64,000 nt of DNA from Streptosporangium sp. NBC_01495. Lineage in GTDB: Bacteria > Actinomycetota > Actinomycetes > Streptosporangiales > Streptosporangiaceae. This document shows, one piece after another, positions 1,237 to 13,585 of the stretch. Under the pieces are notes generated by a model. The model ran no database searches, was not told where the DNA came from, and was given only the letters and a program-made list of their open reading frames with translations. The translations under genes and the position numbers were made by a program. Each line of letters begins with the position of its first letter. Position 1 is the first letter of the stretch. The DNA lies in contig NZ_CP109430.1 of assembly GCF_036250735.1 (NCBI RefSeq), positions 2,480,001-2,544,000 on the forward strand, read 5' to 3'.

Positions 1237-3616
1237 GTGACGTCGGTCGAACGGACCGCCTACCGGGTGTTCCCGCGGTTGGTGATGACGCGTGAGCTGT
1301 ACCTCTTCCACTCCCCTTCGGCCGAGGAGACAGCGTGGGCGCGGGAGAAGACCGACACCGATGAGCACCTGCTGGCGTTGACGCTCGCGCTGAAGTGTTT
1401 TCAGCGGCTGGGCCGTTTTGCCAAGACCCGTGAGGTGCCGCCGGTGGTGGTGGAGCACATGCGGCGGTGCCTGGAACTCGGCGAGGATGTCATGCCGGTG
1501 TATGCCTCGTCGCGTACGGCTGAGTCGCATCGGGTGCTGGTGCGCCGCCGGGAGGGGTGGGCTACGCGCCGGGTAAGGCGCGCAAGGTCGCGGCCAAGGC
1601 GATGACCCGGGCGGCGTGGGTGAAGAATCACCCGGCGGACCTGATCAACGTTGCGTTGGAGCGGCTGGCGCAGGCCCGGTTGGAGCCGCCGGCGTTTTCC
1701 ACGCTGGACAGCATGGAGTCGACGATCCGTGGCCAGGTCAACGGACAGATCTTCGAGACGATCTGGCGGCGGCTGAGCGCCGGGGATCGCGTGCGGCTCG
1801 CGGCGTTGCTGGTGGTCGGGCCGGGTGGCAAGAGCGATCTGGATCGGTTGAAGAAGCCGGCGCGGCGGGCGAGCTGGTCGAAGTTCAAGGAGCAGGCCGC
1901 GCACCTGGCCTGGGTGGAGGGATTGTGTGACACCGGGGCGGTGCTGGAGGGCATCGCCGCCTCGAAGATCGCCGACTTCGCCGGTGAAGCGGATGCGGCC
2001 GATGCCGATGTGCTGGCCCGTAGCTACAGCGTGGAGGCCAAGCGGATCGCGCTGCTGGTGTGCCTGGTGCACACCGCGCGGGCGCGGGCGCGCGACGACC
2101 TGGCCGCGATGATGTGCAAGCGGATGGCGGCCACCGCCAAGAAGGCCAAGGCCAAGCTGGAGGAGATCCATCAGCGGCAGCGGCAGGTGGTGGAGAACCT
2201 GATCGGAACCTACCGGGGCGTGCTGCAGGGCTTGGTGCCGGGCGGGCCGGTCGAGACGGCTGAGATCGCGGCCGCGCAGATGGTGATGATGGCGCTGGCC
2301 GCGCTGAGGGGCCCAGGCGGGGACACAGGAGTAGATCCCGAGATCGGCTCGGATGTCGCGGAGTCAGAGCAGCGGGACGGGCTCGGGGCTGATTTAGGGG
2401 TCGCGGTCGAAGTACTGGTCAAGGCGGTGCGGATGCAGGCCGCCGGGGTGGGTTCGGTCCGGCAGGTGGTGGAGCGGGCCGGTGGCGCGGCCGCGCAGCC
2501 GGCCGATATCGAGGAGGTGACGGCCTATCAGCATGACAACCACGAGCTGCTCATCCAGCAGTTCTTCAAGGCCGACCGCTCCATCATGCTCGCTTTGGCC
2601 GCGGTGCTGAGGTTCAAGGCGACCTCGGCCGATCGCAGCGTGCTGGACGCGCTGGAGCACGCTCTGACCTACTGGGGCAAGACCCGCGCCTTCGGTACGG
2701 AGGGTTCGGCGGGATCGCCTACCACTACGTCTCCGACAACTACATCGCCCTGTTCTCCCGGTTCGTGCCGTGCGGGGCGTGGGAGGCGATCTACATCATC
2801 GACGGGCTGCTGGCCAACGCCTCCGAAGTTCAGCCCAAGACCGTCCATGCTGACACGCAAGGCCAGTCGTTTCCTGTCTTCACGCTCGCGCATTTGTTCG
2901 GGTTCGATCTGATGCCGCGCATCCGCAACTGGAAGGGCCTGACCTTCTTCCAGCACAGCAACCAGGTGACCTACCGCCACATCGACTCCCTGTTCCGCGG
3001 GGAAGGTGGGAACCGCAATGTGATCGACTGGGAGCTGGTGGAGAAGATGTGGCCCGACCTCATGCGGGTGGCGATCTCCATCCGCGAGGGCCGCCTCAAC
3101 TCCGTCACCCTGCTGCGCCGGCTGGGCTCCCACTCCCGCAAGAACGAGATCTACCGGGCCTTTCGCGAGGTCGGGCGTAGCGTGCGCACCGTGGCGCTGC
3201 TGCGTTTTCTCGCCGACCCGGCACTGCGCAGGCGCATCACCGCGGTTACCAACAAGGTCGAGGGCTTCAACGGCTTTTCTGGCTGGCTGCGCTTCGGCAA
3301 CGACGGCGTCATCGCCGCCAACGACCCGGCCGAGCAGGAGAAGATGATCAAATTCAACTCTTTGCTGGCCAACTGCGTGATCTTTCACACCGCGCTGGAC
3401 ATGACCGACGTGCTGCGCCAACTGCTGGCCGAGGGCTGGCAGCCCGAGCAGGGCTCCGACATTACCGCCGCCGACATCGCGCAGCTGTCGCCCTACCTGA
3501 CCGCGCACATCAGCCGGTTCGGCCTGTATGCCACCGACGTGCTGCGCCTGCGCCCTGACGACTTCGACCCCGACCTACCCGCGATCGACTTCACCGCCTT
3601 GGCCGAGGCGGCGTAG
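1237..3616 (+). pseudogene. tnpA: Tn3-family transposase, frameshifted and internally deleted
   Basis: Three reading frames join into one Tn3 transposase. The N-terminal part starts at GTG 1237 (protein begins VTSVERTAYRVF). A G appears lost from a G run near 1552-1557, moving the frame by one base. The second segment runs to about 2690. There the frame and the homology jump directly to the C-terminal catalytic part (YGGFGGIAYHYVSD from base 2696). About 200 or more codons are missing compared with the usual length of about 1000. The second catalytic Asp (HADTQGQS, codon 2852-2854) and the Glu (NKVE, codon 3260-3262) remain. The segment that normally carries the first catalytic Asp is gone, so the protein cannot be an active DDE transposase. 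Confidence 0.9.
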
Positions 3617-3738
3617 ACGGCAAGTGGGCCAGAGACGAGAGCTGGGGATCGTAGTGAGGCGTTTCGGGCGGCAGGCCGAGGCTTGAACAAGGCACGGTGC
3701 TCTCGTCGATCTTGACACTCATTGATAGGTTTCCTACA

Positions 3739-3772
3739 GGTGCGCCGGGAAGTCTGGTCGGCAATTCTGCCG
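3739..3772 (+). promoter_or_regulatory. Leader element A, upstream of CBS/antiporter operon
   Basis: The core GCCGGGAAGTCTGGTCGGC (3744-3762), preceded by GGTGC, ends 33 bases before the ATG of the CBS-domain gene. Its last bases overlap a small hairpin, CGGCA-ATTC-TGCCG (3759-3772). The same core, with a single T/C difference, precedes two other cargo operons at 7151-7169 and 11086-11104. Position and conservation suggest a cis-acting leader RNA or regulator site; the class is not identified. Confidence 0.6.
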
Positions 3773-3795
3773 TCCATCCCGGAAAGGCGCCCGCC

Positions 3796-4239
3796 ATGCG
3801 CGCTCGCGACCTGCTCACCGCCTTCCCCACGGTCACCTTGGACACCGCGGTGATCGAAGCTGCTCGGCTGCTGGCCGACCAGGACCTGCCCGGCCTGATC
3901 GTCGTCGACGAGCGCGGGCTGCCCTCCAGCATCCTGCCCGGCACCCAGGTGCTGCGACTGGCCGTACCCGGCTACTGCCAAGACGATCCGGCCTTGGCAC
4001 GGGTGGTGGACGAAGCGCACGCCGACGCCCTGCTCACCTCCGTGACCGGCCGGACCGTACGCGAGGCACTGCTCGCCCAGCCCCGCGAACTGCCGGTCAC
4101 CGACCCGCAGGCCACCGCGCTGGAGCTGGCCGCGCTGATGGCACGCACGCACAGCCCGCTGGTCGCGGTGGTCGAGGGCGGCCGGTTGCTGGGGGCGGTC
4201 ACCCTGCAGGCGCTCATGGACGGGCTGCTGGGCCAGTGA
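3796..4239 (+). CDS. CBS-domain protein
   Basis: This 147-residue protein has two CBS repeats. The first, about residues 1-60, begins MRARDLLTAFPTVTLDTAV; the second, about 85-145, contains LALMARTHSP-like and GAVTLQALMDGLL segments. CBS pairs bind adenine nucleotides and often regulate transporters. ATG 3796 is chosen because GGAAAGG lies 8 bases upstream and the first CBS motif starts at once. The stop overlaps the GTG of the next gene (GTGA), implying translational coupling with the ArsB/NhaD-type transporter, which it probably regulates. It is transposon cargo and the first gene after leader element A. Confidence 0.8.
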   Translation: MRARDLLTAFPTVTLDTAVIEAARLLADQDLPGLIVVDERGLPSSILPGTQVLRLAVPGYCQDDPALARVVDEAHADALLTSVTGRTVREALLAQPRELPVTDPQATALELAALMARTHSPLVAVVEGGRLLGAVTLQALMDGLLGQ

Positions 4240-5528
4240 CAGCACTGGCTTGGCTGTCGGTGGCGGTCTTTCTCGGCGCCTACGCGCTGATCGCCACCGA
4301 ACGCATCCACCGGGTCGCCGCCGCGCTCGGCGGCGCCGGGATCATGCTGCTGATCCACGCCAGCGACGCCGGGGCGGCGTTCTTCAGTGAAGAGACCGGC
4401 ATCGACTGGAACGTCATCTTCCTGCTGCTGGGCATGATGGTGATCGTCGGCGTGCTCAAGCAGACCGGCGTGTTCGAGTACCTGGCGATCTGGGCGGCCA
4501 AACGAGCCCGCGGCCGGCCGTACCGGTTGATGGTGTTGCTGGTCGTCATCACCGCCTCGGCCTCGGCGCTGCTGGACAACGTGACCACGGTGCTGCTGAT
4601 CGCGCCGGTCACCTTCCTGGTGTGTGAACGGCTGACACTGCCGATTGTGCCGTACCTGATCGCCGAAGCGCTGGCCTCCAACATCGGCGGCACCGCCACC
4701 CTGGTCGGCGATCCGCCCAACATCATCATCGCGAGCCGCGGCGGATTGTCGTTCAACGACTTCCTCGTGCACATGGCACCGATGGTCATCGTGCTGATGG
4801 TGACCTTCGTCGGGCTGTGCCGCATCTTGTTCCGCAAGGCGTTCGTCTACGATCTCGAACGCGCCGCCGAGATCATGCGGCTGAACGAGCGCGAGGCGAT
4901 CGCCGACCCTCGGCTGCTGTGGCAGAGCCTGACCGTGCTGGGCCTGGTGATGGCGGCGTTCGTGCTGCATCCGGTGCTGCATTACGAGCCGTCGGTGGTG
5001 GCGATCCTGGGCGCCGGCCTGCTGGTCGCGGCCACCAAGGTGAGCACCGAGCAGGCCATCGCCGAGGTCGAATGGCCCACCCTGGTGTTCTTCATGGGCC
5101 TGTTCGTCATGGTCGGTGCCCTGGTCGAAACCGGCGTGATCGGCCAGATCTCCCGCCTGGCGGTCGAGGCCACCGCCGGCCAGCTCGGGTCGGCCACGAT
5201 GGTGTTGTTGTGGGCTTCGGCCGGGTTGTCGGCGATCGTGGACAACATCCCCTACGTGGCCACCATGAGTCCGATCGTGGCCGAGCTGGCGCAGGCGAGT
5301 GGCGGCAACGGTGCGGGGCAGGTGCTGTGGTGGGCGCTGGCCTTCGGCGCCGACCTGGGCGGCAACGCCACCGCCGTCGGCGCGGCGGCCAACGTGGTCG
5401 TCATCGGCATCGCCGCCCGCAACGGCACCCCGATCAGCTTTTGGACCTTCACCAAATACGGCTTGATCGTCGCCGTGGTCACCGTGGCGCTGGTCACCCC
5501 GTACCTGTGGCTGCGCTACCTCCTGTGA
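4236..5528 (+). CDS. ArsB/NhaD-family ion transporter
   Basis: A 430-residue polytopic membrane protein with about 11 to 12 hydrophobic segments. It carries the ion-transporter superfamily signatures ASALLDNVTTVLLIAPVTF and GGTATLVGDPPNIIIA in the first half, and the second-half repeat SAGLSAIVDNIPYVATMSPI. The family includes arsenite exporters, NhaD Na+/H+ antiporters and SLC13-type permeases. The sequence does not decide the substrate. No arsenic regulator or arsenate reductase lies nearby, so a cation or anion antiporter is as likely as ArsB. It is coupled by a 4-base overlap to the CBS-domain gene, which may gate it. Confidence 0.85.
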   Translation: MTALAWLSVAVFLGAYALIATERIHRVAAALGGAGIMLLIHASDAGAAFFSEETGIDWNVIFLLLGMMVIVGVLKQTGVFEYLAIWAAKRARGRPYRLMVLLVVITASASALLDNVTTVLLIAPVTFLVCERLTLPIVPYLIAEALASNIGGTATLVGDPPNIIIASRGGLSFNDFLVHMAPMVIVLMVTFVGLCRILFRKAFVYDLERAAEIMRLNEREAIADPRLLWQSLTVLGLVMAAFVLHPVLHYEPSVVAILGAGLLVAATKVSTEQAIAEVEWPTLVFFMGLFVMVGALVETGVIGQISRLAVEATAGQLGSATMVLLWASAGLSAIVDNIPYVATMSPIVAELAQASGGNGAGQVLWWALAFGADLGGNATAVGAAANVVVIGIAARNGTPISFWTFTKYGLIVAVVTVALVTPYLWLRYLL

Positions 5529-5530
5529 CG

Positions 5531-5644
5531 ATGAACAGGCCACGGTTCGCCGATGAGCGCACCCTGCCCGCCTTCGTCGTGGCTCAGCTGGCCGCCGCCG
5601 AGATGTCCATGAAAGCCCGCCACCCAGTGCGGACCAGGTCGTGA
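5531..5644 (+). CDS. Possible 37-residue ORF, unknown
   Basis: A short frame starts at ATG 5531, just after the antiporter stop, and encodes a charged peptide beginning MNRPRFADERTLPAF. No clear ribosome site is visible apart from translation read-on from the preceding gene. I do not recognise it. It may be the remnant of a gene broken when cargo modules were joined, or simply the spacer before the hydrolase. Confidence 0.25.
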   Translation: MNRPRFADERTLPAFVVAQLAAAEMSMKARHPVRTRS

Positions 5645-5670
5645 TCTGCTTTTCTCAGCATGGAGGTGCC

Positions 5671-6546
5671 ATGGTGTCCACATCCCGCGCGGCCTTTTCC
5701 GAGCGCGCTACCGCCATCGCGCGCACGCCGGCCGGCCCGGTGGAGTACCGGCAGGAGGGCGAGGGCCACAGGACGGTCCTGGTGTTCCACGGCGGACACA
5801 TGCGGGCAGGGCTGGCGCTGGGCGAGGAGGTCTTCACTGAGGCCGGTTTCACGGTACTGACACCCTCGCGCCCCGGTTACGGGCGTACGCCGCTGAGCAC
5901 AGGAACCACCCCGGCCGGTTTCGCCGACGCCACCGCCGAGCTGTGCCGGAGTTTGGGCATCGAACGCCTGGCCGCGGTCGTGGGCATCTCGGCCGGCGGC
6001 CGAACGACGCTGACCATGGCCGCCCGCCACCCGCAGCTGGTCGAGCGCGTCATCCTGCAAAGCGCGGTCGCCTTCCTGCCCTGGCCCGACCGGCTGACCC
6101 GACTGGGCGGCCGGGCGGTGTTCAACGCCCGGACCGAGGCCGGCACCTGGGCGATCATGCGGTCCCTGATCCGCCTGGCACCGCCGGTGGGGCTGCGCCT
6201 GCTGCTGCGTAGCCTGTCGGCCCTGCCCGCACGCCAGGTCCTGGCGGGCCTGTCCGCCGCCGAACGCGCCATGCTGGCGGGGCTGTTCACCAGGATGCGC
6301 TCGGGCCACGGCTTCGTTGCCGACATGCTCTCCGTGCCCGACTGCGCCGCCCAGGTCGGCCAGAGCGCGCTGGTCATCGCCACCCGCCACGACCGGTCGG
6401 TGCCCTTCGCCCACGCCGAGTCCCTGGCATCGGTCCTGCCGAACGCCGAACTGGTGGACAGCAGGGCCGACAGCCACATGATCTGGTTCGGCCCCGACTA
6501 CCCGCGCATCGCCACCAAGATCCGCGAATTCCTCGCCACGGACTGA
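5671..6546 (+). CDS. Alpha/beta hydrolase
   Basis: A 291-residue alpha/beta-hydrolase fold protein. The nucleophile elbow is GISAG (Ser107), the oxyanion region is VFHGGH, a likely acid is the Asp in RHDRSVP, and the catalytic His is in DSHMIW near the C-terminus. ATG 5671 is chosen because TGGAGGTG sits just upstream; GTG 5674 would give better spacing and remains possible. The protein is cytosolic, with no signal peptide. It is convergent with the GbsR/MarR regulator gene. The substrate is unknown; esterase, lactonase or epoxide hydrolase are all possible. Confidence 0.8.
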   Translation: MVSTSRAAFSERATAIARTPAGPVEYRQEGEGHRTVLVFHGGHMRAGLALGEEVFTEAGFTVLTPSRPGYGRTPLSTGTTPAGFADATAELCRSLGIERLAAVVGISAGGRTTLTMAARHPQLVERVILQSAVAFLPWPDRLTRLGGRAVFNARTEAGTWAIMRSLIRLAPPVGLRLLLRSLSALPARQVLAGLSAAERAMLAGLFTRMRSGHGFVADMLSVPDCAAQVGQSALVIATRHDRSVPFAHAESLASVLPNAELVDSRADSHMIWFGPDYPRIATKIREFLATD

Positions 6547-6580
6547 GCGCGGCGACCGCTTCCCGAGTCTCGGGCTGGGG

Positions 6581-7039
6581 TCAGCCGCTCTGCTGGTGCC
6601 AGCGGTGCAGTAGGGCGGGAAGCTCGCCGAGCAGGAATTCATAGAAGGCGTGCATCTGCGCCAGGCGCCGGTGGGCGGGGTCGCCGTTCTCGGTGGCGGC
6701 GATTCCGGCGGCCGCGGCCTGGAGCATGGCCTGGATGACGGTGTTCTGGCTGGTGAACAGGGTGGCCCAGGCATCGTCGCGGAGCCGGTAGTGCTCGCGG
6801 CGGCTGCCGGGGGCGGGCAGGCGTTCGATCAGGCCGACCGTGAGCAGGGATTTGATGGCGCCGGAGACCGAGCCGGCGCTGGCTTCCAGCCGGTCGGCGA
6901 TCTCGCCGGCGGTGACGCTTTCCTGGTCGGTGAACAGAAAGACCGCCAGGGTGCGCGCGGCCATGCGCTGCATGCCGCCCTCGATCAATGTGAGGGCCAG
7001 CCGTTCGGCCGCCTGCCACTGCTCATACCGATCGTCCAC
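6581..7039 (-). CDS. GbsR/MarR-type winged-helix repressor
   Basis: A 152-residue protein with a central winged-helix domain, about residues 40-100 (VTAGEIADRLEASAGSVSGAIKSL, then a wing ending SRREHYRLRDD), and a helical C-terminal part, as in GbsR-like members of the MarR superfamily. GTG 7039 has AAGGAGG 7 bases upstream. It is transcribed divergently from the CocE-epimerase-monooxygenase operon. The shared intergenic region has a perfect 16-bp palindrome placed over both -35 boxes, so it most likely represses that operon and itself, with an unknown ligand releasing it. Confidence 0.8.
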   Translation of the reverse strand: MDDRYEQWQAAERLALTLIEGGMQRMAARTLAVFLFTDQESVTAGEIADRLEASAGSVSGAIKSLLTVGLIERLPAPGSRREHYRLRDDAWATLFTSQNTVIQAMLQAAAAGIAATENGDPAHRRLAQMHAFYEFLLGELPALLHRWHQQSG

Positions 7040-7063
7040 GTGCTCGCCTCCTTGAGAAGAATC

Positions 7064-7114
7064 AGGATACCGAACACCCCGACTCTTCAGAAATTTCTGA
7101 AAAGTCGGTATAGT
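7064..7114. promoter_or_regulatory. Divergent overlapping promoters with MarR-type operator
   Basis: On the plus strand, -35 TTCAGA (7086-7091) and -10 TATAGT (7109-7114) are 17 bases apart. On the minus strand, -35 TTCTGA (7092-7087) and -10 TATCCT (7069-7064) are also 17 bases apart. Both -35 boxes lie inside the perfect palindrome TTCAGAAATTTCTGAA (7086-7101), which extends to a 28-bp near-palindrome at 7080-7107 with one mismatched pair. A dimeric repressor bound here would block both promoters. Confidence 0.65.
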
Positions 7115-7145
7115 CCTCGTATCGGCCTCTCGCGGGAGGTTCGAT

Positions 7146-7169
7146 GGTGTGCCGGGAAGCCTGGTCGGC
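7146..7169 (+). promoter_or_regulatory. Leader element B, upstream of CocE operon
   Basis: GGTGT followed by GCCGGGAAGCCTGGTCGGC, ending 43 bases before the ATG of the CocE-type hydrolase and about 30 bases downstream of the TATAGT -10 box. It would therefore lie in the 5' untranslated RNA. It is identical in its 19-base core to element C and differs from element A at one base. Confidence 0.6.
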
Positions 7170-7212
7170 GATGTGATCTCTCATCAGCCTCGACAGGAAG
7201 TAGATCCCGGTC

Positions 7213-8826
7213 ATGACCCTGCTCAGCCGTTTGTACGGCGTGCGGCCCGCCCTGCATCACCGGGTGCGCGTCCGGCGGAACGTGGAGATCCCGGCCGCCG
7301 ACGGTGTGCGGCTGCTGGCCACGCACTACTACCCGGCCGGTCAGCACCAGCCGCCGCTGGTGCTGCTGCGCAGCCCGTACGGCCGCGGCAACGCCCTGGA
7401 CCGGCTCCCGGCGCTGCTGGCCGAGCGCGGCTACCAGGTGCTGTACCAGAGCCTGCGCGGCACAGCCGGATCCGATGGCCGCTTCGACGGCTTCGTCATC
7501 GACCCGGCCGACGGCGACGGCACGCTGAGCTGGCTGCGCGCCCAGCCGTGGTTCGGCGGCGAGCTGGCCACCTGGGGCGCCAGCTATCTCGGCTACGTCC
7601 AGTGGGAGCTGGCCGCCCGCGACATCCCGGAATGGAAGATCGCACTGATTCAGGACGCGCCGTCCTCCTTCGCCGAAGGCTTCATGTACTCCGGAGGGGC
7701 CTTCGCCACCGGTAACGCGCTCGGCTGGGTGCAGCTGGTGGAGCGGATGGTCACCGGCGGATACGGCATCACCCGCCAGATGGCCGACTTGGTCGGCGCC
7801 GCGCGGCGGCTGTCGCGTGCCACGCTCGCCCTCCCGCTGCAGGAGGCCGATCAGGTGCTCACCGGTCACCCGGTGCCCTGGTTCCGAGACTGGGTCCGGC
7901 ACGGTCCCGGCGAGCCGTACTGGGAGAGCAGCGACCACCGCGCCAACGTCGCCCGCATGCCGCCGCTGGTGCACCTGCAGGGCGGCTGGCACGACTTCTT
8001 CCTGCCGGGGATGCTGGCGGACTACGCCGCCCTGCTCGCCGCCGGGCGTCAGGTGCGGCTGCTGGTCGGCCCGTGGAGCCACGGGCGCGGGCTCTACACC
8101 CGCGAAGGGCTGGCCGACGCGCTCACCATGCTGGATGCCGCGCTGCTCGGTCGGCAGGCGCCATCGGGCGTGCGGCTGTTCATCACCGGCGCCGGCCGCT
8201 GGATCGACGTGCCCGCCTGGCCGCCCGCGCACGAACCGGCCGCGTGGTTCCTGCGCCCGGACGGCGGTCTCAGCCGTACCCCGCACGACGGCCGGAGCTC
8301 TCCCAGCCGCTACCGCTACGACCCCGCCGACCCGACCCCTACCGTGGGCGGCACGCAGGTGGGCCTGTCGGCGGGGGCGAAGGACAACCGCGCCATCGAG
8401 GCCAGAGCCGACGTGCTCACCTTCACCACCGCACCCCTGGCCGAAGACATCGAGGCCGTCGGCCCGGTCCAGGTGCGGTTGCACACGCGCTCGGCCAACC
8501 CGCACGTCGACTACTTCGCCCGGCTGTGCGACGTGGACGCGCGCGGCCGGTCGATCAACGTGTGCGACGGCATCGTCCGCCTGCGCGACCCCGGTGACAT
8601 CCGGGTCGCCGACATCGCCCTGTGGCCGATGGCCCACCGATTCAAGCGTGGCCACCGGATCCGGGTGCAGGTCTCCAGCGGCGCTCACCCGCGCTTCGGC
8701 CGTAACCCCGGCACCGGCCAGCCGCTTGCGACCGGGACGGGCCTGCGCGTGTCCGAGCACGAGATCTTCCACGACCACAGCCACCCGTCAGCCCTCTGGC
8801 TACCCCTCACTCCAGGAGCGTCATGA
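7213..8826 (+). CDS. CocE/NonD-family (S15-type) hydrolase
   Basis: A 537-residue protein with an N-terminal alpha/beta-hydrolase domain and a C-terminal jelly-roll domain typical of the X-Pro dipeptidyl-peptidase S15/CocE family. Visible features are the oxyanion segment RSPYGRG, the nucleophile motif GASYLG (Ser124), the Asp region GGWHDFFLPG, the catalytic His in GPWSHGRG, and a C-terminal beta segment HRIRVQVSSGAHPRF. Family members hydrolyse esters or acyl bonds (cocaine esterase, glutaryl acylases, cephalosporin ester hydrolases). It is the first gene of a repressor-controlled operon, overlapping the epimerase gene by ATGA. The substrate is unknown. Confidence 0.85.
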   Translation: MTLLSRLYGVRPALHHRVRVRRNVEIPAADGVRLLATHYYPAGQHQPPLVLLRSPYGRGNALDRLPALLAERGYQVLYQSLRGTAGSDGRFDGFVIDPADGDGTLSWLRAQPWFGGELATWGASYLGYVQWELAARDIPEWKIALIQDAPSSFAEGFMYSGGAFATGNALGWVQLVERMVTGGYGITRQMADLVGAARRLSRATLALPLQEADQVLTGHPVPWFRDWVRHGPGEPYWESSDHRANVARMPPLVHLQGGWHDFFLPGMLADYAALLAAGRQVRLLVGPWSHGRGLYTREGLADALTMLDAALLGRQAPSGVRLFITGAGRWIDVPAWPPAHEPAAWFLRPDGGLSRTPHDGRSSPSRYRYDPADPTPTVGGTQVGLSAGAKDNRAIEARADVLTFTTAPLAEDIEAVGPVQVRLHTRSANPHVDYFARLCDVDARGRSINVCDGIVRLRDPGDIRVADIALWPMAHRFKRGHRIRVQVSSGAHPRFGRNPGTGQPLATGTGLRVSEHEIFHDHSHPSALWLPLTPGAS

Positions 8827-9827
8827 AACTGCTTGTTCTCGGCGGCACCCACCACGTGGGCCGCGCCATCGTGGAGACCGCGCTGCAGCGCGGCGATGAG
8901 GTGAGCACGCTCAACCGTGGCCTCAGCCGCGACCCAGCCCCCGGGGTGCGGGCGCTGATCGCCGACCGCACCGACCCCGAGTCCGTACGGCGGGCGCTGG
9001 GCTCAGCCGAATGGGACGCCGTCATCGACACCTGGGCCTGGGCGCCGCGGGTGGTGCGCGACAGCGCCCGCCTGCTGTCCGGCCGGGCCGGCCACTACGG
9101 CTACGTCTCCAGCCGCGGCGTGCACCGCTGGCCCTGGCCTGCGCACGCCGACGAGCGGGCGCCGCTGGTCGACGGCGACCCCGCCAGCGGGGAAGCCGCC
9201 GACTACGCCGCGGCCAAGCGCGGCGGAGAGCTCGCCGTTCTGGAGTCCTTCGCCGGCCGGGCGCTGCTGGCCAGGGCCGGGATGATCCTCGGCCCGTACG
9301 AGGACGTCGGCCGCATCCCGTGGTGGCTGCGCCGCCTGGAGAAGGGCGGCCGGGTCCTGGCCCCCGCCCCGGCCAACACGCCCCTGCAATACCTCGACGT
9401 CCGGGACCTGGCCACCTGGATACTCCAGGCAGCCGAACGCGGCCTGAGCGGTACGTTCACCACGACCGGCCCGCCTGGCGCGATCACCCTCGGTGACCTG
9501 CTCACCACGATGCTGGAGGTCACCGGCTTCGACACCGAGCTGGTGTGGGCGTCGCCAGAGCTGCTCTTGCGGCACGGCCTGCCGCTCGGCATGGAGTTCG
9601 GGCTGCGGCTGCCCGACGGCAGCGCGCCGAGCGGCATGCACGACGCCGACGTCAGCGCCGCCCGCGCCGAAGGTCTGACCGCGCGCCCGCTGCGCGACAC
9701 CCTCGCCGACACCTGGACCTGGCTGCAGGCCGAAGGCGACCCGGCACCCCGCGCAGACGCACCCTCACCCGACACCTGGCTCGACGCTGCTGCGGAACAG
9801 CGGCTGCTCGACCAGCTCTCCCACTAA
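8823..9827 (+). CDS. NAD-dependent epimerase/dehydratase (extended/atypical SDR)
   Basis: A 334-residue Rossmann protein with N-terminal nucleotide motif GGTHHVGRA (about residues 7-15) and the conserved segments DAVIDTWAW, GYVSSRGVH, YAAAKRGGE (Tyr and Lys of the SDR active site) and GMILGPYEDVGRIPWWLRR. It is a clear paralog of the chromosomal gene at 20106-21098, sharing for example LILGPYE-VGRLPWWL and VIDVRDLA. It overlaps the CocE gene by four bases and is followed after 17 bases by the monooxygenase. A redox or isomerase step in the same pathway is likely; the substrate is not evident. Confidence 0.85.
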   Translation: MKLLVLGGTHHVGRAIVETALQRGDEVSTLNRGLSRDPAPGVRALIADRTDPESVRRALGSAEWDAVIDTWAWAPRVVRDSARLLSGRAGHYGYVSSRGVHRWPWPAHADERAPLVDGDPASGEAADYAAAKRGGELAVLESFAGRALLARAGMILGPYEDVGRIPWWLRRLEKGGRVLAPAPANTPLQYLDVRDLATWILQAAERGLSGTFTTTGPPGAITLGDLLTTMLEVTGFDTELVWASPELLLRHGLPLGMEFGLRLPDGSAPSGMHDADVSAARAEGLTARPLRDTLADTWTWLQAEGDPAPRADAPSPDTWLDAAAEQRLLDQLSH

Positions 9828-9844
9828 AGAAGGCACCACCTGTT

Positions 9845-10990
9845 ATGCGCGCCATCATCATCGGAGCCGGCATCGCCGGCCTGGCCACCGCCCTGCGCCT
9901 GCACCAGATCGGCTGGGACACCCTCATCGTCGAACGCGCGCCCGCCCGCCGCGGCGGCGGCTACGCGGTCACCTTCGGCGGCATCGGCTACGACGCCGCC
10001 GAACACATGGGCATCCTGCCCGGCCTGCTCAAGAAGGGCTTCATCACCGACGAACTCGTCTACCACAAGGCCGACGGCTCCCGCCGTTTCTCCCTCGACC
10101 GCGCCACCATCGCCGCCACCACGGGCGCTCGCTCGATCACCATCCTGCGCGGCGACCTCGAAGCCGTCCTGTATGAGGAGGTCCGCGATCACACCGAGAT
10201 CCGCTTCGGCGCCACCCTCACCGCCGTCGACCAGGACGAGCACGCCGTCCGGGTGACCTTGACCGACGGCACCATCGAGGAGGCTGACCTGCTGATCGGC
10301 GCCGACGGCCTGCACTCGGCCACCCGCGCCCTGCTGTTCGGCCCGGAAGAGGGCTTCCTGCTCGACCTGGATCACAAGGTGGCCGTCTACATGCTCGACC
10401 GGCGGCCCGCCACCATCGCGCCCGGCGCCACCGGCACCCTGTCCTCCGGTGGTCGCACCGCCGCGGTCATCAGCATCCCCGACGGCCGCAACGTCGCCTT
10501 CTTCGGCTACCGCGCCAGCCACGCCCGGCCAGGCGAGGACGTGACCACCGAACTGCAGCGCGTCTACGGCGACCTCGGCTGGGTCATCCCCGAAGCCCTG
10601 GCCGGCCTGGCGCGGGCCGATTCGGTCTACTTCGACACCATCAGCCAGGTCGTCGCACCGTCCTGGAGTAAAGGCCGGGTGGTCCTGCTGGGCGATGCCG
10701 CCTGGTGCGTCACGCTGTTCGCCGGGTACGGCTCCTCACTGGCTGTCGGCGGCGCTGACCGTCTCGGCACCGAACTGGACGCCCACCCCGGCGACATCCC
10801 CGCCGCGCTGGCAGCCTGGGAGGCGGCCATCCGGCCCGAAGCCGAACGCAAACAGAAACTCGGCCGCCGAGTCAAAGGCGTCTACGCCCCCGCCAACCCG
10901 GTGTTGCTGTGGCTGAGCCTGCTACCGCTGCGCTTGGCCTCTCTGCCGCCGGTCCGCCGGTACATGACCCGCCGCTTCATCAAGGGCTAA
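9845..10990 (+). CDS. FAD-dependent monooxygenase
   Basis: A 381-residue group A flavin monooxygenase-like protein. The FAD Rossmann motif GAGIAGLATALRLHQ is at residues 8-22, the DG motif is LLIGADGLHSATR, and the second FAD motif is GRVVLLGDAAWCVTLFAGYGSS. The family uses NAD(P)H and O2 and includes TetX-like and Rox-like antibiotic-modifying enzymes as well as biosynthetic hydroxylases. ATG 9845 is preceded by AAGAAGG. The C-terminal tail is unusually basic and hydrophobic (WLSLLPLRLASLPPVRRY), possibly touching the membrane. It is the last gene of the CocE-epimerase operon. With the ABC exporter that follows, a detoxification role is plausible but unproven. Confidence 0.85.
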   Translation: MRAIIIGAGIAGLATALRLHQIGWDTLIVERAPARRGGGYAVTFGGIGYDAAEHMGILPGLLKKGFITDELVYHKADGSRRFSLDRATIAATTGARSITILRGDLEAVLYEEVRDHTEIRFGATLTAVDQDEHAVRVTLTDGTIEEADLLIGADGLHSATRALLFGPEEGFLLDLDHKVAVYMLDRRPATIAPGATGTLSSGGRTAAVISIPDGRNVAFFGYRASHARPGEDVTTELQRVYGDLGWVIPEALAGLARADSVYFDTISQVVAPSWSKGRVVLLGDAAWCVTLFAGYGSSLAVGGADRLGTELDAHPGDIPAALAAWEAAIRPEAERKQKLGRRVKGVYAPANPVLLWLSLLPLRLASLPPVRRYMTRRFIKG

Positions 10991-11052
10991 GGATTGTGGG
11001 GCACCTGTCCGGGCGGGCGGCCAGGTGTTACATTCTAGGCAACTGAAAAGGT

Positions 11053-11123
11053 CGCGCCCCTCCTGTGGGGCGCGGGTGTCGGTGAGCCGGGAAGCCTGGT
11101 CGGCCCGCGATCAACGATCGCGG
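11053..11123 (+). promoter_or_regulatory. Structured leader C, upstream of DUF998/ABC operon
   Basis: Three elements in a row: a perfect 8-bp hairpin CGCGCCCC-TCCTGT-GGGGCGCG (11053-11074), the conserved core GCCGGGAAGCCTGGTCGGC (11086-11104, preceded by GGTGA), and a second perfect 8-bp hairpin CCGCGATC-AAC-GATCGCGG (11105-11123). The DUF998 ATG follows 20 bases after the second hairpin. The first hairpin may instead terminate the upstream monooxygenase operon. This is the most structured of the three copies and looks like a cis-regulatory RNA. Confidence 0.6.
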
Positions 11124-11143
11124 AGCTAGGAGGCCACTGCCCG

Positions 11144-11809
11144 ATGCGCCCGACCACCATCCTGCTCACCTGCGGCGTCGCCGCCGGCGTGCTCGTCCCG
11201 GCCCTGATCCTCACCGACGGAGCCACCAGGCCCGGCTACAGCCTGTGGCACCACGGCGCCAGCCAACTCGGCACCGGCCAGCGCGGCTGGCTGCAGACGG
11301 TCAACTTCGTGATCGGCGGGCTGCTATTGCTCGCCTTCGCGGCCGGGCTACGCCGCGTGCTATGCCGCGCGCCGCAGCCCGGCCGCGCCGCCATATGGGG
11401 GCCGATCCTCCTCGCGGCGGCCGGCCTCGCGCTGGCCGTGGCCGGGATCGTGCCCACCGATCCCGCCCTCGGCTACCCGCCCGGCCGGCCCGAGGTGATC
11501 ACCGCCACCGGACGCGTCCACGGCCTGGCCGGCCTGGGGCTGTTCGCCACCCTGGCGGCCACGCCGTTCGTGCTGGCCAGGCCCCTGCGCGGCAGCAACC
11601 AAGGGTGGGTGGCCTACTCGCGGTGGTCGGGCGCCCTGGTCATCGCCTTCGCCATCGCCGCAGGGGTCGCCTTCCGCCTGGATGTGCAGGGCGTGCTCCG
11701 CCCTGCGCCCGCCGGGCTGCTCGAACACGCCGCCCTGCTGGTCGGCTTCGCCTGGATCATCGCCGCTGGCCTGCGCCTGCGCAGCCCCAACACCGTCGTG
11801 CAGGGGTGA
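11144..11809 (+). CDS. DUF998-family membrane protein
   Basis: A 221-residue integral membrane protein with about six hydrophobic segments and the features of the DUF998 family: an early G-Y-S-x-x-x-x-x-x-S-x-L-G segment (GYSLWHHGASQLGTG) and a GRVHGLAGLGLFATL segment. The biochemical function of the family is unknown. ATG 11144 has TAGGAGG about ten bases upstream. It is the first gene of the operon with the microprotein and the ABC exporter, downstream of leader element C. Confidence 0.8.
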   Translation: MRPTTILLTCGVAAGVLVPALILTDGATRPGYSLWHHGASQLGTGQRGWLQTVNFVIGGLLLLAFAAGLRRVLCRAPQPGRAAIWGPILLAAAGLALAVAGIVPTDPALGYPPGRPEVITATGRVHGLAGLGLFATLAATPFVLARPLRGSNQGWVAYSRWSGALVIAFAIAAGVAFRLDVQGVLRPAPAGLLEHAALLVGFAWIIAAGLRLRSPNTVVQG

Positions 11810-11887: not shown

Positions 11888-12813
11888 TGCCGACGAACAG
11901 CGCACGGGTCCCGGTCATCGAGGTGGCCGGCCTGACCAAGCGCTATCCCGGCGCCCTGGCGGTCGACGACGTCGACCTGAGCGTGCACGCGGGCCAGATC
12001 TACGCCTTGCTCGGACTCAACGGGGCCGGCAAGACCACGCTGATCCGCATGCTGCTCGGCATGATCGCCCCCACTGGCGGATCAGCGAAGGTGCTCGGGG
12101 CAGCCGTCACGACCGGGCAGCGTTCGGCCTGGGCCCGCACCGGCTACCTGGTCGAAGCTCCGGCCGCCTACCCGGAACTGACCGTGCGCGAAAACCTGCA
12201 CCTGTACGCCCGCCTGCGCCGCCTCAAGCACCCCGGCCGGCACGTGGAAGACATCATCGAACGGCTGGCCCTGACCCCCTATGCCGCTCGGCGCGCTCGC
12301 ACCCTGTCGATGGGCAACCTGCAGCGCCTGGCCCTGGCCAAAGCCCTCATCCACACCCCGGACCTGCTCATCCTCGACGAGCCGGTCAATGGACTGGACC
12401 CCGTCGGCGTGGTGGAGATCCGCACCCTGCTGACCGATCTGGCTCACCAGCACGGCACCACCGTGCTGATCTCCAGCCACCTGCTGGCCGAAGTCGCCCG
12501 TCTGAACGGCCGCATCGCCATCCTGCACCAAGGCCGGCTGCTGGCCGAACACGACGCCACCAGCCTGGACCAACACCGGCGCCGCCACGTGAACATTTCC
12601 ACCCGCGACAACGCGACAGCCGACCGGATACTGCGCGATCACGGCTACCACCCCGGCCCCGGCCTGCTGCTGACCGACGAACGCGCCCTGGCACGGCCCG
12701 AGGAGGTGGCCACCATCCTGGTCGAAGCGGGCGTGCCGCCCACCGAACTCCGCCTGGTGGAAGAAGACCTGGAAGCCTACTTCCTGCGCATCGTCGGAGC
12801 CGACCATGCGTGA
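11884..12813 (+). CDS. ABC transporter ATP-binding protein (BcrA-like)
   Basis: A 309-residue ABC ATPase. Walker A is GLNGAGKT (about residues 44-51), a signature-like LSMGN replaces the usual LSGGQ, Walker B is LLILDEP, and the switch His lies in LISSHLL. The domain after residue 210 is the small regulatory tail common in BcrA/DrrA-type drug exporters. ATG 11884 overlaps the microprotein stop; ATG 11887 is an alternative. It overlaps the permease gene by 8 bases. Together they form a two-gene ABC-2 exporter, probably for a hydrophobic compound. Confidence 0.88.
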   Translation: MMPTNSARVPVIEVAGLTKRYPGALAVDDVDLSVHAGQIYALLGLNGAGKTTLIRMLLGMIAPTGGSAKVLGAAVTTGQRSAWARTGYLVEAPAAYPELTVRENLHLYARLRRLKHPGRHVEDIIERLALTPYAARRARTLSMGNLQRLALAKALIHTPDLLILDEPVNGLDPVGVVEIRTLLTDLAHQHGTTVLISSHLLAEVARLNGRIAILHQGRLLAEHDATSLDQHRRRHVNISTRDNATADRILRDHGYHPGPGLLLTDERALARPEEVATILVEAGVPPTELRLVEEDLEAYFLRIVGADHA

Positions 12814-13585
12814 GGCGCTGTGGAGCGAACTGCTCAAGGCCCGGCGCAGCCGCCTGCCCACCCTCACCGCGCTTGCCTTCACCCTCGTCACCCTCGTGTG
12901 CGGCCTGTTCATGTTCATCCTGGCCGACCCCGCCCGCGCCCGCGCGCTGGGACTGCTCGGCGACAAGGCCCAGCTGTCCGGCGCCGTCGCCGACTGGCCC
13001 GGCTACCTGACCCTGCTGGCCCAAGCGGTCGCCGTGGGCGGCCTGCTGATCTACAGCATGATCGCCATCTGGGTGTTCGGCCGCGAGTTCAGCGACCACA
13101 CCGCCAAGGACCTGTTCGCCCTGCCCACCTCCCGCACCATCATCGTGGCCGCCAAGTTCACCCTCACCGCTACCTGGGCCGTGCTGCTCGCCGCGGGCAC
13201 GATCGCTGGCGGCCTGCTGCTCGGCGCGCTGCTGGCCCTGCCCGGCTGGTCGGCGCAGGCCGTCGCGTCCGGTGTCGCGAAGATCCTGGTCGCCGCCGCG
13301 CTGTCGGCGGTGCTGACCTCACCGCTGGCGCTGGCCGCCAGCATCGGCCGCGGCTACCTGGCCGCGGTCGGTGTGCTGTTCGTGCTGGCGTTCGCCGCCC
13401 AGATCATCGCCGCGCTCGGCTTCGGCGCTTGGTTCCCCTACTCGGTACCCGGCCTGTACGCGGGCATCGCTGGGCCCGGCCACGACCCACCCGGACCCAT
13501 CAGCATCCTGCTCGTCCTGGCCACCGGCGCGGCCGGCGTGGCAGCAACCCTCGCGTGGTGGCGCAACGCCGACCACGACCGTTAA
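12806..13585 (+). CDS. ABC-2 type permease
   Basis: A 259-residue protein with six hydrophobic segments and a long N-terminal cytoplasmic start (MREALWSELLKARRSR) typical of ABC-2 permeases of the BcrB/NatB type. The conserved interface segment WVFGREFSDHTAKDLFALPTSR follows the second helix. It is the partner of the preceding ATPase (8-base overlap) and the last gene of the cargo. It is convergent with the recombinase gene. Confidence 0.85.
   Translation: MREALWSELLKARRSRLPTLTALAFTLVTLVCGLFMFILADPARARALGLLGDKAQLSGAVADWPGYLTLLAQAVAVGGLLIYSMIAIWVFGREFSDHTAKDLFALPTSRTIIVAAKFTLTATWAVLLAAGTIAGGLLLGALLALPGWSAQAVASGVAKILVAAALSAVLTSPLALAASIGRGYLAAVGVLFVLAFAAQIIAALGFGAWFPYSVPGLYAGIAGPGHDPPGPISILLVLATGAAGVAATLAWWRNADHDR

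Follow-up and report, generated by a model that had tools for sequence, protein, structure and literature searches.

A conserved 25-nucleotide leader RNA with predicted switch architecture precedes Na+/H+ antiporter genes in Actinomycetota and Chloroflexota

A short leader element shared by three operons

A 64,000-nucleotide (nt) stretch of the Streptosporangium sp. NBC_01495 genome (contig NZ_CP109430.1, positions 2,480,001 to 2,544,000, forward strand; hereafter the window) carries three copies of a short element, one each upstream of an antiporter operon, a CocE-family hydrolase operon and a DUF998 operon. We propose, with a probability of roughly 0.7, that a cis-acting RNA switch for Na+/H+ antiporter genes has this element as its 25-nt 5' domain and responds to what would be a cation- or pH-linked signal. 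Judged by its sequence it is a very conserved cis-regulatory RNA with the predicted architecture of a switch, most likely a riboswitch-like class belonging to the Na+/H+ antiporter gene set and apparently undescribed, whose ligand and polarity we infer. A sequence-only reading of the window had suggested a shared leader RNA, and this is supported by compensatory changes in the stem of its hairpin, a covarying pair at the base of that stem (nt 5 and 25, written 5.25), selected alternative pairing downstream, and terminator-like hairpins in Chloroflexota, which together argue for a riboswitch architecture.

The sequence GCCGGGAAGYCTGGTCGGC occurs exactly at 3744-3762, 7151-7169 and 11086-11104 of the window (elements 1, 2 and 3), always on the + strand, where 0.21 copies would be expected by chance at up to 3 mismatches; none of 100 shuffles reached three copies. 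Counting the preceding GGTGN, their first letters are at 3739, 7146 and 11081, and 33, 43 and 39 nt separate the elements from the start codons at 3796, 7213 and 11144, so that the three near-identical coding-strand elements described earlier are exact matches at the spacing given for them. The weaker match noted at 1215 indeed agrees in 19 of 24 positions, but it is not a member because A13 and C16, invariant in 76 of 76 matches (see below), are changed and the 3' strand of the stem is broken. Nucleotide 25, one beyond the 24-nt motif first recognised, belongs to the unit.

The home genome (11.1 Mb) holds five copies, among which C.A, U.G and A/C forms of nt 5/25 are all represented. The two outside the set described above precede nhaA (locus L001; PF06965), which lies far from the window, and a second epimerase/monooxygenase operon (L002). 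Permitting up to 3 mismatches adds one match with two mismatches and 15 with three, with 10 in the reversed control; here the element is either complete or missing.

Covariation supports a hairpin closed by a wobble-type pair

In the hairpin, P1, nt 6-10 pair with nt 20-24 (GCCGG/UCGGC) and enclose the loop GAAGYCUGG. A search of 148 genomes that placed no constraint on nt 9-17 gave 76 matches, all of which kept GGGAAG[U/C/A]CU, and 1 in the reversed control; when the stem was left free instead, there were 82 matches and none in the control, including six odd stem variants. Two of these are GUC/GAC and two GCU/AGC double changes, making four compensated replacements of C-G by U-A; of the others, L159 is uncompensated and L160 carries U20G. 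Both relaxed patterns required loop nt 18-19 as given, so that their invariance has no independent support. Two further stem variants, L225 (GC, lacking a -10 box or clear gene) and L310 (uncompensated), are not counted as support.

At the base of the hairpin, positions 5 and 25 covary as U.G or C.A, which are isosteric wobble pairs, and shun Watson-Crick combinations. Among 229 copies there are 107 U.G (68 expected), 56 C.A (24), 1 C-G (31) and 16 U-A (53; p 8e-27), and in the final set of 287 copies 131 U.G, 74 C.A, 24 A.A, 17 U-A, 12 A.G, 9 U.C, 8 A.C and 12 others (C-G 2). This covariation lies above a phylogeny-aware null. On a tree of NhaA proteins (127 of the 139 members of the NhaA cluster, each of at least 300 amino acids), nt 5 underwent no fewer than 42 changes and nt 25 no fewer than 40, and their mutual information of 0.42 compares with a maximum of 0.175 in 2000 independent simulations. 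Counting coincident changes on branches is a weaker test (16 against 11.3 expected, p 0.046), and the simulation is to be preferred.

Pair counting on 60 of the 287 copies detects two-sided changes at 7-23 and 8-22, with C.A given no credit; the covariation score was reached by 10 of 500 shuffles and the percentage paired by 39. Of 150 references drawn, 60 were aligned. A general mark of riboswitches, a conserved leader RNA structure with covariation support, is therefore present, and the covariation test proposed in the sequence-only reading has yielded both compensatory stem changes and the non-canonical pair 5.25.

Position 15 within the loop is T in 64 and C in 7 copies before NhaA genes, versus 34 T and 20 C elsewhere in the genome-contig set. 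We considered this pyrimidine as a ligand-specificity switch and rejected the idea, the other gene families being mixed and the trend a tendency only. Several copies with A15 lie outside the class to which the home genome belongs.

Downstream sequences are selected to pair with P1

Selection has favoured downstream sequence that pairs with the 3' strand of P1, and P1 and this alternative fold are mutually exclusive. In 150 of 168 leaders (those lacking an open reading frame or with a gap of at least 80 nt being excluded), folding compared with dinucleotide-shuffled untranslated regions (UTRs) gave a z of -0.81 with the motif, 0.03 for the UTR by itself and -0.12 when the motif was reversed. 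Simple shuffles gave -0.57 for the native leaders and 0.04 once GGUCGGC was blanked. Its complement CGACC is found in 67 of 163 UTRs versus 21 coding controls, and 38 of 70 CGACC occurrences end 11-16 nt ahead of the start codon. Forcing P1 to form costs a median of 8.6 kcal/mol, compared with 4.6 with a shuffled UTR (194 of 229 leaders), and we therefore take the UTRs to be selected against unaided P1. The stretch just upstream of the ribosome site becomes more accessible when P1 is forced (0.372 to 0.484; control 0.413 to 0.450). Loci L034, L035 and L043 were left out of the complementarity and leader-fold analyses.

In Chloroflexota the alternative takes another form. A terminator-like fold whose 5' strand consists of element bases is present in 11 of 16 matches (L298-L305 and L307-L309; L295-L297, L306 and L310 lack it), although several of these leaders are closely related and the 11 folds are not independent cases. 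In L307 the hairpin GCGCCGGG...CCCGGCGU is followed by a run of seven U, and the tails range down to four U (L305). The 3' strand tracks nt 5, with ..GCGU accompanying C5 and ..GUAU accompanying U5, and also tracks A15 in L298. A consensus terminator scan found none in L299 at 1450-1800, because the loop of such a hairpin falls outside the 3-8 nt that the scan allows; over 3600-11250 of the window it found one site only, on the minus strand. A second general mark of riboswitches, an expression platform that cannot form together with the aptamer, is thus seen in computed folds.

Distribution and position of the 5' end

The element reaches well beyond this locus and is not tied to a transposon: of 394 genomes sampled from the class, 254, about two thirds, contain the core GCCGGGAANNCTGGTCGGC (1 match in the reversed control). 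Dedicated genome draws covered Actinomycetota and Chloroflexota: the element was found in 42 of 149 genomes drawn phylum-wide (12 of them from the class, the home genome included) and in 12 of 201 Chloroflexota genomes, with no control matches in either. A scan of species genomes gave at least 119 matching stretches, and among those listed 117 are from Actinomycetota, Streptomyces and Mycobacterium species included, and 2 from Chloroflexota (L043 and L122, the latter from Ktedonobacteraceae). The only two matches on viral contigs (L034, L035) both lack the 5' GGNG and were taken as chance. Absence of the motif upstream of genes in other genomes, which the sequence-only reading had named as grounds for abandoning the idea, is contradicted by its presence there in hundreds of further genomes.

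Positions 1, 2 and 4, which the search left free, are each G in 165 of the 167 copies. In 106 of these copies, and in 182 of the final 287, a TANNNT box begins 13 or 14 nt upstream of G1, and because of this spacing the RNA of such copies is predicted, as the most likely case, to begin at G1. Element 1 of the window fits, with TAGGTT at -13 from nt 1.

Genes behind the element

First genes were called for 128 of 130 copies in the genome-contig set with a purpose-made open reading frame caller and Pfam. They include 71 NhaA, 12 Na_H_Exchanger (at least one also NhaA), 8 CBS, 4 ABC and 2 CitMHS genes, and further loci encode an MrpA-like antiporter, TrkH, a Na/Ca exchanger, an Ion_trans ion channel, a P-type ATPase, NfeD, STAS and DUF2254 proteins. 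Ten genes scanned in Chloroflexota comprise eight Na+/H+ exchangers, one CitMHS and one PP2C. Of the earlier proposal that a shared leader joins unrelated genes into one regulon, the leader is supported; the genes are on the whole not unrelated, being across genomes mainly a Na+/H+ antiporter set (one of three in the window). NfeD behind L227 and TrkH behind L174 and L054 hint at a wider membrane or ion stress set.

The description of the window operons as cargo is doubtful, since the gene sets recur together with their own elements elsewhere and the home nhaA copy is far away. Genome G131 carries CocE, epimerase, monooxygenase and MarR proteins at 88-93% identity, and G315 epimerase, monooxygenase, MarR and DUF998 proteins at 79-89% identity.

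Relation to known leader RNAs

The Rfam scan proposed earlier returned no Rfam 15 family at gathering score in the window, and at 18 element loci only a tRNA reaches that score. The best match below it at the three window sites, mir-320 (E 0.024), lies outside the elements on a palindrome at 7079-7108, and Burkholderiales-2 (cis-reg; 13.1 bits against a cut-off of 67.9, E 7.7) overlaps element 3; both were taken as chance. Matches at the three sites up to E 10 include no Na+ or Li+ family, the presence of a DUF1646 model in the Rfam set used being unchecked. The motif letters were not found in published text, the search covering mostly open literature without preprints, so that an earlier description elsewhere is possible; within the same partial coverage we met no actinobacterial antiporter leader of this kind.

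Three described systems are the closest in kind, as far as the accessible parts of their reports go. The Na+-I riboswitch (DUF1646 motif) precedes Na+ transport genes, including napA-like antiporters, and activates their expression (PMC9337991); the element shares that association, but the Na+-I aptamer as described there has two stems, P1 and P2, and the element one hairpin. The Li+-I and Li+-II riboswitches (nhaA-I and nhaA-II) are described as ON switches with nhaA as their commonest gene (PMC9646797), a likeness to the element. Li+-I (RF03057) was found in none of eight element-bearing genomes (150 candidates scored each) with a positive Caulobacter control; Li+-II (RF03038) was likewise found in none of the eight, although its control also gave no match, and it has no gathering match in the window or the 18 loci. 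The dauA motif of Streptomyces, an actinobacterial leader with 57 representatives and a STAS gene downstream, is reported as a three-stem junction around the Shine-Dalgarno sequence (PMC11109978); some element copies also precede STAS genes, where the two might overlap, and the element differs from dauA as described there. The STAS copy L121 has no gathering match in Rfam. Identity with the rifamycin-associated element was set aside on gene scores rather than letter by letter, L072 and L139 falling far below the Rph and Rgt cut-offs.

Proposed mechanism and alternatives

We are highly confident that switching occurs at the RNA level. In computed folds P1, closed below by the wobble-type pair 5.25 and capped by its loop, excludes an alternative fold, which in most of the Chloroflexota leaders seen is a GC-rich hairpin with a U-rich tract, so that P1 would serve as antiterminator, and which in actinobacteria lies just 5' of the ribosome site, so that P1 would leave translation open. 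The loop and the GGNG 5' end may bind Na+ at high intracellular concentration or a linked cation or pH signal, which would stabilise P1 and turn Na+/H+ antiporter genes on. The three window copies would place this switch ahead of the CBS and antiporter genes, the CocE/epimerase/monooxygenase operon and the DUF998/ABC exporter operon. We lean slightly towards a cation or pH as ligand, and Na+ itself is a tentative choice. It is equally tentative to view the element as a new class of alkali-cation riboswitch (Na+ or Na+/H+ state), in which a 25-nt hairpin, often at the very 5' end, has an invariant loop and is closed by an isosteric U.G/C.A+ wobble pair. As an aptamer it would, if real, be among the smallest known.

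Several observations weigh against the proposed switch or parts of it. Pair counting is mixed: two-sided pairs were matched by 72 of 500 shuffles and further pair types by 496. Strong GGUCGGC complements occur in 98 of 163 UTRs but also in 53 of 163 coding controls, and forcing P1 raises accessibility of the Shine-Dalgarno sequence no more than in the control (0.403 to 0.469; control 0.402 to 0.471). Complements of GCCGGG show no enrichment in actinobacterial UTRs, and that pairing was set aside as a general actinobacterial platform. The element stands at only 12 of 30 top NhaA loci examined, and genes without an obvious cation link occur, two of the three in the window among them. The spacing implying a start at G1 is confined to the 106 of 167 copies (182 of 287) given above; elements 2 and 3 have TATAGT and TACATT only 37 and 52 nt upstream, and their RNAs may start further upstream.

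Two other explanations keep some weight, though we consider each unlikely. An RNA-binding protein might stabilise or mask P1, the switch being real and the sensor a protein; the extreme invariance of the loop of a single small hairpin (76/76) would fit a protein site as well, and ligand binding by the RNA itself is an inferred step, but the element persists in two phyla whose alternative folds differ. Alternatively, the element may be a true riboswitch for a toxic small molecule or stress metabolite, with antiporters as part of the response. DrrA-like ABC ATPases, the FAD monooxygenase, the CocE hydrolase, a glycosyltransferase and a PEP-utilising kinase behind some copies speak for such a ligand, but the first genes are predominantly those of antiporters and further ion transporters.

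Hairpins at the 5' end can protect mRNAs, and a constitutive stability or translation-enhancing hairpin that senses nothing is conceivable; it is very improbable, a switch better fitting UTRs selected to destabilise P1 and Chloroflexota copies that overlap terminator-like hairpins. Still less probable is a site in DNA, either an operator or an initially transcribed promoter element, to which a repressor would bind from +1 to +25. The element's place immediately downstream of TANNNT in 106 of the 167 copies and the imperfect dyad GCCG...CGGC would suit such a site, but the compensatory stem changes, a U.G/C.A covariation that shuns Watson-Crick pairing and the complementarity of the UTRs are marks of an RNA, and elements 2 and 3 sit further from TA...T boxes.

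If the proposed RNA switch is correct, about two thirds of the sampled genomes of the class would share a Na+/H+ antiporter leader RNA that the Rfam 15 models leave unreported in the window and at the 18 loci. As an alkali-cation riboswitch it would be the commonest for Na+ homeostasis in Actinomycetota, and its little-varying stem is probably why it was overlooked. The near-invariant stem suggests that covariation-based searches miss such elements. Sodium and alkaline stress sensing in actinobacteria would become testable with a 60-nt RNA, and the U.G/C.A pair would offer a structural handle. Some lineages may also have wired the switch to ABC exporters and detoxification enzymes, Na+ entry through ionophores or membrane damage presumably acting as the alarm.

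Features of the three window loci

The elements and associated features, all on the + strand, are as follows.

3739..3763, +: leader element 1, nt 1-25; GGUGC, P1 hairpin (3744-3748 with 3758-3762) and A25; pair 5.25 is C.A; U15 type
3777..3782, +: UCCCGG, complement of element 1 nt 7-12 (CCGGGA) in the minimum free energy (MFE) fold; adjoins the likely ribosome site AAAGG at 3783-3787
3796..4239, +: CBS-domain protein (Pfam PF00571), first gene behind element 1
4236..5528, +: CitMHS/ArsB/NhaB-like ion antiporter (Pfam PF03600, 2.2e-94)
7146..7170, +: leader element 2, exact motif; pair 5.25 is U.G; C15 type
7205..7210, +: UCCCGG, complement of element 2 nt 7-12 in the MFE fold, 2 nt ahead of the start codon; putative function
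7213..8826, +: CocE/NonD-family hydrolase, followed by epimerase (8823-9827) and FAD monooxygenase (9845-10990)
11081..11105, +: leader element 3, exact motif; nt 5/25 are A/C; C15 type
11105..11123, +: hairpin CCGCGAUC/GAUCGCGG, stacking on P1 in the fold with P1 forced
11144..11809, +: DUF998 membrane protein; behind it an ABC ATPase (to 12813) and an ABC-2 permease (12806-13585)

In the modelled fold the sequence at 3777..3782 would form an alternative helix that excludes P1. For the antiporter at 4236..5528, NhaD/NhaB and other NCBIfam matches are all under cut-off.

Between a divergent MarR gene and element 2, a perfect palindrome TTCAGAAATTTCTGAA (7086-7101) overlies the promoter-like TTCAGA-17-TATAGT; a similar sequence is found in L002. 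It is probably a MarR operator, and CocE may therefore be under double control. Directly 5' of element 3, inside a putative longer leader, lies a strong hairpin CGCGCCCC/GGGGCGCG (11053-11074). Just upstream of element 1, a Tn3-type transposase (1557-3616) is split into two overlapping frames, a weak DUF4158 piece and a DDE_Tnp_Tn3 piece, and is apparently degenerate. In five other genomes, chosen for their many copies, 3-4 elements lie within 4-17 kb (L245, L246, L247, L248 and L249), as they do in the window.

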